A DNA stretch of 64,000 bases, taken from NCBI GenBank assembly GCA_022775005.1, contig JALFJR010000047.1, forward strand, positions 20,325-84,324. Direction: 5' to 3'. The number at the start of each line of letters is the position of its first letter. Position 1 is the stretch's first letter. The notes beneath the pieces are model-generated. The model was not told the DNA's origin and searched no databases. It saw only the letters and a program-made list of their open reading frames with translations. Below, piece after piece: positions 49,970 to 52,239 of the stretch. The translations under genes were made by a program, and so were the position numbers. This stretch comes from Parabacteroides sp. (GTDB lineage: Bacteria > Bacteroidota > Bacteroidia > Bacteroidales > Tannerellaceae).

Positions 49970-51598
49970 ATGGCAACACCTCCGTTTCACTATGAGCCGA
50001 TGTTCCAGAAAGGACCGGATCAGACAGAGTATTATTTGTTGACAAAAGACTATGTTTCCGTCTCTGAGTTTGAGGGGAAACCGATATTGAAGATCGCCAA
50101 GGAGGGCTTGACCGTCATGGCGAATGCCGCTTTCCGCGATGTTTCGTTCATGTTGCGTCGTTCTCACAACGAGCAGGTGGCGAAGATCCTCCGCGATCCC
50201 GAGGCAAGTGATAATGATAAGTATGTAGCATTGACCTTCTTGCGCAATGCCGAGGTTTCTGTGAAGGGTAAGCTGCCCATCTGCCAAGATACGGGTACGG
50301 CTATTATCCACGGTGAGAAGGGCCAGCAGGTTTGGACCGGTTACTGCGATGAGGAGGCACTCTCTGAGGGTGTTTACAAGACCTATACCGAGGAGAACTT
50401 GCGCTATTCACAGAACGCTCCCCTCAACATGTATGACGAGGTCAACACGAAGTGCAACTTGCCGGCTCAGATCGACATCGAGGCTACTGAAGGCATGGAG
50501 TATGAGTTCCTTTGCGTGACAAAGGGTGGTGGTTCTGCCAACAAGACCTATCTCTATCAAGAGACAAAGGCCGTGTTGAACCCGAACACCTTGGTGCCCT
50601 TCTTGGTAGAGAAGATGAAGACCCTGGGTACAGCCGCTTGTCCTCCCTATCACATTGCGTTCGTGATTGGTGGAACCTCTGCGGAGAAGAACCTCTTGAC
50701 CGTAAAGTTGGCCTCTACGCACTACTATGACGAGTTGCCGACGACGGGTAACGAGTATGGCCGTGCATTCCGCGACGTAGAGTTGGAGAAGCAGGTACTG
50801 GAGGAGGCCTATAAGATTGGTTTGGGCGCACAGTTTGGTGGTAAGTACATGGCACACGACGTACGCATTGTCCGCTTGCCTCGCCACGGTGCCTCTTGCC
50901 CGATTGGTTTGGGCGTAAGCTGCTCCGCAGACCGTAACATCAAGTGTAAGATCAATAAGGAAGGTATCTGGATCGAGAAGCTCGACTCCAATCCCGCAGA
51001 GTTGATTCCGGAGGAGTTGCGTCAGGCCGGTGAGGGTGACGCAGTGAAGATCGACTTGAACCAGCCTATGGCTGACGTTTTGAAGATCCTCGACAAGTAT
51101 CCGGTGGCAACCCGCCTCTCTTTGAACGGTACGATCATCGTAGGTCGTGACATTGCGCATGCGAAACTGAAAGAGCGTCTGGATCGAGGTGAGGAGCTTC
51201 CGCAATACATCAAGGATCACCCCATCTATTATGCAGGTCCGGCGAAGACTCCGGCAGGCATGGCTTGTGGTTCCATGGGTCCAACAACCGCTGGTCGTAT
51301 GGATCCCTACGTGGATCTCTTCCAGAGCCACGGTGGTAGCATGATCATGTTGGCGAAGGGTAATCGTAGCCAGCAGGTAACGGATGCTTGTAAGAAGCAT
51401 GGTGGTTTCTACTTAGGCTCTATCGGTGGTCCGGCTGCGATCTTGGCACAGAACAACATCAAGAGCATCGAGTGCGTTGAGTATCCGGAGTTGGGTATGG
51501 AGGCCATCTGGAAGATCGAGGTAGTTGACTTCCCCGCATTCATCTTGGTAGATAACAAGGGCAATGATTTCTTCAAGCAATTGAAGCCCCGTTGCTAA
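49970..51598 (+). CDS. fumA: Class I (iron-sulfur) fumarate hydratase
   Basis: 542 residues, the size of the two-domain single-chain class I fumarase. Cluster and active-site regions are [17 protein letters not shown] (first cysteine), [53 protein letters not shown] and [27 protein letters not shown]. It interconverts fumarate and malate and is oxygen sensitive, which suits an anaerobe. Codon bias suggests high expression. Symbol follows the E. coli A/B paralogues. It is single, with a palindrome array after the stop. Confidence 0.94.
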
Positions 51599-51654
51599 TC
51601 ATTGCAAAGGGTCAAGTGTTCAAGAAATAGTGAACCACTAAGGCCTTTTTGAGC

Positions 51655-51736
51655 CGTAAGCTTACGATTTTTCAAGCCGCAAGCTTACGGTTATCTATAC
51701 TCGTAAGCTTGCGGTTTAACAAGTGATAAGCTTACG
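51655..51736. repeat. Array of four phased HindIII-centred palindromes
   Basis: CGTAAGCTTACG (51655-51666), CGCAAGCTTACG (51678-51689), CGTAAGCTTGCG (51702-51713) and GATAAGCTTACG (51725-51736). Centres lie 23, 24 and 23 bases apart. Copies 2 and 3 are reverse complements of each other over 13 bases, and 1 and 4 over 10, so the array can also form one nested hairpin. It sits between the converging fumarase and YqaA genes. Confidence 0.85.
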
Positions 51737-51795
51737 AGTATATTTATTGATAATAAGATAGTTATAAAATCGATTCCAGTAAATATCGGGAGGAG

Positions 51796-52239
51796 TTATT
51801 GAGCCACCATATAGACAAACTCCATCCAAATCCAATAGCGGATGGCCTTGCCGATGAACATGGAGATGGCGACTATGTAAATATTCGCACGTAAGAAGCC
51901 GAGGGCTACGGCAATGAAATCGCCAATGCCGGGGAGGAAGACGAAGAAGCCCATCCATGAGCCTTTACCTTGGATCCAGTTTTGTACCTTCTGCAATTTC
52001 ACGGGATCCAGTTTCAGGTACTTCTCGATCCATTCCATTTTGCCTAACATCCCTAACCAATAACAGCTCATGCCACCTAAGAAGTTGCCCAAGGTAGCTG
52101 CGATCATGCAGGGCCAATAGGAAGCTCCAGCCAATAGCACACCCGTCAATACGACCTCGCTGCTAAATGGTAATACCGTAGCGGCCAAGAAAGAGGCGAT
52201 GAAGACACCGATGAATCCGTAAGCGATCAGAAATTCCAT
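51796..52239 (-). CDS. YqaA/DedA (VTT domain) family membrane protein
   Basis: 147 residues: MEFLIAYGFIGVFIASFLAATVLPFSSEVVL, then TLGNFLGGMSCYWLGM, GFFVFLPGIGDFIAVALGFLRANI. The G-(N/D)-x-x-G motif and the later F-x-P-x-x-G-D segment are those of the YqaA branch of the VTT (formerly SNARE-associated) family, which includes lipid scramblase-like DedA proteins. Shorter than DedA proper. Last in the leftward six-gene run; its start overlaps the preceding gene by 13 bases. Confidence 0.82.
   Translation of the reverse strand: MEFLIAYGFIGVFIASFLAATVLPFSSEVVLTGVLLAGASYWPCMIAATLGNFLGGMSCYWLGMLGKMEWIEKYLKLDPVKLQKVQNWIQGKGSWMGFFVFLPGIGDFIAVALGFLRANIYIVAISMFIGKAIRYWIWMEFVYMVAQ

Follow-up and report, generated by a model that had tools for sequence, protein, structure and literature searches.

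A four-module palindromic intergenic repeat family, apparently undescribed before, in a subclade of Parabacteroides

The stretch of DNA analyzed here (64,000 nucleotides of contig JALFJR010000047.1 from a Parabacteroides sp. draft genome, henceforth the window) contains at positions 49970–51598 of the plus strand an open reading frame of 542 aa with close homologues across Bacteroidales, whose product we take, from its sequence, to be a class I fumarate hydratase. Convergent to it, on the minus strand (51796–52239), lies an open reading frame for a small membrane protein of 147 aa, presumably YqaA/DedA-like. Fold and sequence mark out a terminator-like hairpin of the fumarate hydratase gene at 51606–51649 (plus strand), which a simple terminator scan did not report. 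The stem of this hairpin runs into a TTTTT tract that abuts an element of 88 bp (51652–51739, no strand assigned). The element sits in the convergent gap, 54 bp past the fumarate hydratase gene and 57 bp before the YqaA-like gene, and the hairpin is a structure separate from it, outside the repeat family to which the element belongs.

The initial annotation had reported at 51655–51736 four near-palindromes with an AAGCTT core, and they are present as described. The 12-mers CGTAAGCTTACG (51655–51666), CGCAAGCTTACG (51678–51689), CGTAAGCTTGCG (51702–51713) and GATAAGCTTACG (51725–51736) have start-to-start spacings of 23, 24 and 23 bp, and the second and third are exact reverse complements of each other. 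Eight places in the window match the 12-mer with two or fewer mismatches, against 1.5 expected, four of them within 82 bp; none of 100 shuffles gave eight matches, and the array is far beyond chance. The comparison of copies revealed that the actual unit is longer than the 12-mer, namely an 18-bp module of the type AGCCGTAAGCTTACGGCT. The common architecture at other loci, together with BLAST, delimited the whole element as four such palindromic modules separated by 5, 6 and 5 bp: AGCCGTAAGCTTACGATT (51652–51669), AGCCGCAAGCTTACGGTT (51675–51692), ACTCGTAAGCTTGCGGTT (51699–51716) and AGTGATAAGCTTACGAGT (51722–51739), again without an assigned strand. The spacing had been likened to about two helical turns. 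It is regular, as stated, but the phasing does not hold, since 23.5 bp corresponds to ~2.24 turns (10.5 bp per turn) and successive modules are therefore rotated by ~86 degrees, facing different sides.

The element is predicted to fold into one nested hairpin, in which the first module pairs with the fourth and the second with the third (z −7.7 as RNA and −7.0 as DNA), in agreement with the pairing proposed beforehand; the minus strand has an alternative fold of two hairpins. Across 21 copies of the family, 81.5% of the cells pair in the nested structure, versus 23–43% with the partner slid, and the value for a model of four local hairpins is 72.8%. This high pairing indicates that the hairpin is a property of the family. 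Compensatory changes were not clearly above shuffled controls under either the nested or the four-local-hairpin model, so that selection on RNA pairing of the element is not demonstrated. Constant spacing among strains and compensatory substitutions had been set in advance as the observations on which the array would stand or fall; the spacing is indeed constant in orthologues, and the excess of compensatory substitutions did not appear.

Copies were sought in the genome with the 12-mer and the 18-mer; the genus was then scanned with a profile that was built from sequence alone and comprised 21 copies, one of them the window copy. The counts come from these model and pattern searches, with each place counted once and truncated copies included. 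The element was found at ten places in the source draft genome (G000) and at 13 in G016, which is probably P. distasonis ATCC 8503, and the profile search gave three to five places each in G017, G026, G028, G034 and G035. G016 and these five represent six other species of the genus. With a weak occurrence in G001, eight of the 39 Parabacteroides genomes carry the element, and the profile found no match in the remaining 31. BLAST with the window copy alone, which is independent of the profile, also recovered paralogues (the best, G000:C74, with E=1.5e-14). Among 247 genomes sampled from the order, matches were restricted to the source genome, plus one weak match in G058; the latter, a tandem array around CAGCTGACAAC, looks unrelated. 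Phage and plasmid records contained no match to the element, viral contigs none to the one exact 18-mer with which they were searched, and Rfam gave only sub-threshold chance matches. The element is a dispersed intergenic repeat family confined to a subclade of Parabacteroides. Its copies occupy convergent, co-directional and divergent gaps alike, and the genes beside them have no evident common theme. Among the possibilities raised at the outset was that the palindromes belong to a small family of repeats located where two genes converge. The search of the genome and its relatives for the 12-mer and its spacing, as proposed there, did yield a dispersed family in which most copies have four modules at the same spacing; the convergent setting applies to the window copy, other copies being found also elsewhere.

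Other repeats are found in the neighborhood of some copies. Several copies (L003 440–485, L006 300–360, L007 2125–2180, L116 2920–2985 and L010 2065–2110) are adjoined by a different short palindrome of the type CCCAGTTAGGGAAATATTTTTTCCTAACTGGG, a second repeat that the search of the window did not detect; in some cases the two may thus make up a composite unit. A third dispersed repeat (~50–140 bp), likewise absent from the window, contains CTCTAAACCAAACTCGGTG and was located in G000 (C16, C98, C22, C55, C47, C72, C35 and C24) and in G028 (C4 and C43); it also lies near the copies at L001, L002 and L004. Several copies of G016 (L189, L191, L196) are near a promoter-like block, AAAATAGCTCGGAAGGGTTGCAGGTATCAAAGAAACGCGTACCTTTGC, which is itself highly repeated within the genus, with many places in G001, G005, G015 and G026.

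In a listing with the register imposed, 32 of ~40 copies fit four modules at 23/24/23 without gaps, and the matches of a profile that permits gaps are also mostly 92–98 bases long, the majority covering 88–98 positions of the model. In each module a core is flanked by a pair of arms, for which AGCCG, ACTCG, AGTGA and the complements of these are the prevalent sequences. The usual core in the window's clade is TAAGCTTA and P. distasonis-type copies often have TTAGTTAT or AATAACTAA instead, and the HindIII site is therefore not a defining feature. Many P. distasonis-type copies carry in addition GGCTT and AAGCC as outer arms at their two ends and an A-run beyond, and the element reaches 104 bp when these outer arms are counted (mainly in copies of this type). 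Orthologous copies are ~94–99% identical over the element (e.g., G000:C45, G028:C43 and G035:C94). In G034, where the standard four-module element is rare, related modules appear in other arrangements, among them a tandem array with a unit of 23 bp repeated ~4.3 times (G034:C109:921–1030, L112). The arm TTATTCACT bears a loose resemblance to a DnaA box, an identification that was dropped since the remaining arms do not fit.

The initial annotation had offered an array of protein-binding sites as one explanation. Under such a reading the modules would be candidate sites for a dimeric DNA-binding protein, either a regulator or one that organises the nucleoid, and this function would account for the retention of the copies. 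The reading would suit the fixed number and spacing of the modules across species and the conservation of the element at orthologous loci. However, arms and core vary freely among copies and species, P. distasonis-type copies having TTAGTTAT or related sequences in place of AAGCTT, the ~2.24 turns between modules put them out of helical phase, no theme is evident among the neighboring genes, and most of the genus is without the element. The proposal found no support in these data and we consider it improbable.

A nested terminator had also been suggested, and this is not supported. The window copy does not have the GC-rich hairpin plus T-tract of an intrinsic terminator: no T-tract follows the hairpin on either strand, and the terminator-like hairpin of the fumarate hydratase gene is a separate structure just upstream. 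More generally, the element could be an RNA structure at the 3' ends of transcripts, acting as a bidirectional terminator or a 3' stabiliser. The hairpin is very stable on both strands, the window copy and several others occupy convergent gaps or immediately follow a terminator, and the A-run before many P. distasonis-type copies amounts to a T-tract after the stem on the other strand. Nevertheless, many copies are in divergent or co-directional gaps, T-tracts, missing at the window copy, often do not face an upstream gene where they are present, and compensatory changes are not in excess. On balance we find a role at transcript ends unlikely as the explanation of the family.

Orthologous copies, identified by their flanks, mostly share one module arrangement, and the exceptions illustrate how the element is remodelled. 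G028:C87 and G035:C65 agree in their outer modules and differ by an exact inversion of the stretch bounded by the AAGCTT cores of modules 2 and 3; with this stretch turned back, the number of mismatches in 100 bases falls from 14 to 2. Modules have been lost from G035:C92 as compared with G028:C22 and from G016:22211 as compared with G026:C140, the copy G016:3139224 is reduced to two modules, and in G017 a remnant of the element is found at a deletion boundary. The inversion, together with the many combinations of arms found among copies, is what a shufflon-like array would produce, where recombinase-driven inversion affects the stretches from one palindromic core to another. But it is one clear case, other orthologous or duplicated pairs being without inversion, and the draft-genome contig that carries the inverted copy ends ~115 bp away from it, so that an assembly error is possible. 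Besides, template switching at the hairpin would yield the same inversion as a recombinase. A shufflon-like array is thus very unlikely, and it is just as hard to credit that living cells flip the several segments of a non-coding array, with the modules as the points of crossover, which would make each copy a small variable switch.

The presence of a constant unit at unrelated loci suggests that the unit has been copied. Some copies have moved by segmental duplication, as indicated by the longer flanks common to them (G000:C1/C44, G016:2028460/4006165 and G016:3491888/3818562 have spread with larger duplications). No clean empty site was found among the loci compared, one flank being usually non-homologous (at three loci besides that of the window). 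At the window locus, the fumarate hydratase and YqaA genes of G028 are ~5 kb apart, with other genes between them and the element absent. Target-site duplications were found at none of the loci compared, and in the copies displayed no direct repeat was visible by eye at the ends. The Y1 (RAYT-type) transposase PF01797 is absent from G000, G016, G017, G026, G028, G035 and G001; one Y1 protein is present in G034, the only positive among the seven relatives searched. In the complete genome G016, all sites matching the extended end with one or no mismatch fall in known copies, except for one isolated site, and thus no insertion sequence with the ends of the element was seen there. Given that neither an empty site, a target duplication, a transposase nor a matching insertion sequence was seen, it is the dispersal itself that argues for mobility.

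The kinds of repeat closest to the element are REP/BIME/REPIN and the BrickBuilt MITE. The former, known from gammaproteobacteria and other groups, are short extragenic palindromes, regularly spaced, composite, dispersed and hairpin-forming (PMC3733652, PMC2817692, PMC3116915). Like them, our element consists of extragenic palindromes in multiple dispersed copies, combined at regular spacing and able to form hairpins. In contrast, it has ~10 copies per genome (more than 100 for REP) and is a rigid four-module unit, the GTAG or CGTC tag of REP is missing (in the copies displayed the modules end in AGCCG, ACTCG or AGTGA), and the carrier genomes tested are without a RAYT gene, with the exception of the Y1 protein in G034. 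BrickBuilt, from Porphyromonas gingivalis, is intergenic, with 23-nt repeats that form long stem-loops, often near terminators, and has ~19 copies per genome; its repeat number is variable, and it has a leader, a tail and IS5-type terminal repeats (TIR CCGAAAGGTCTC) with target duplications (PMC4596501). The two share the bacterial order, the intergenic location and the long stem-loop, a likeness of described features. Our element differs in being mostly fixed at four units, each itself a palindrome, and neither the TIR CCGAAAGGTCTC nor the leader or tail was seen by eye in the flanks of the displayed copies. As in MITEs in general, the element is small, non-coding and dispersed, with quasi-palindromic ends (terminal inverted repeats), but no autonomous partner or target-site duplication was identified for it.

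Taken as a whole, the element most likely belongs with the small, non-autonomous repeats between genes that make up the REP/BIME/MITE kind, and has spread in trans and been remodelled at its hairpin. It is probably a mobile repeat of a passive nature, not a novel regulatory device. In the scheme we favor, some transposition or replication factor would act on the hairpin and copy the element in trans, and template switching at the hairpin during replication would shuffle, trim and homogenise the arms. Any effects on the neighboring genes, for instance through a stable hairpin where a transcript ends, would be secondary.

No description of the element was found in the open-access literature searched. 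The 88-bp hairpin-forming repeats apparently represent a family undescribed before, new in itself but of a known kind, the small palindromic intergenic repeats, and they are added to the repertoire of a common gut genus. Many copies are found at contig ends, so near-identical copies may be a reason why draft Parabacteroides assemblies break. The rigid build of four palindromes, the apparent absence of a RAYT-type transposase and the one internal inversion make the family suitable for studying how small palindromic repeats can disperse and undergo rearrangement when no transposase is dedicated to them.
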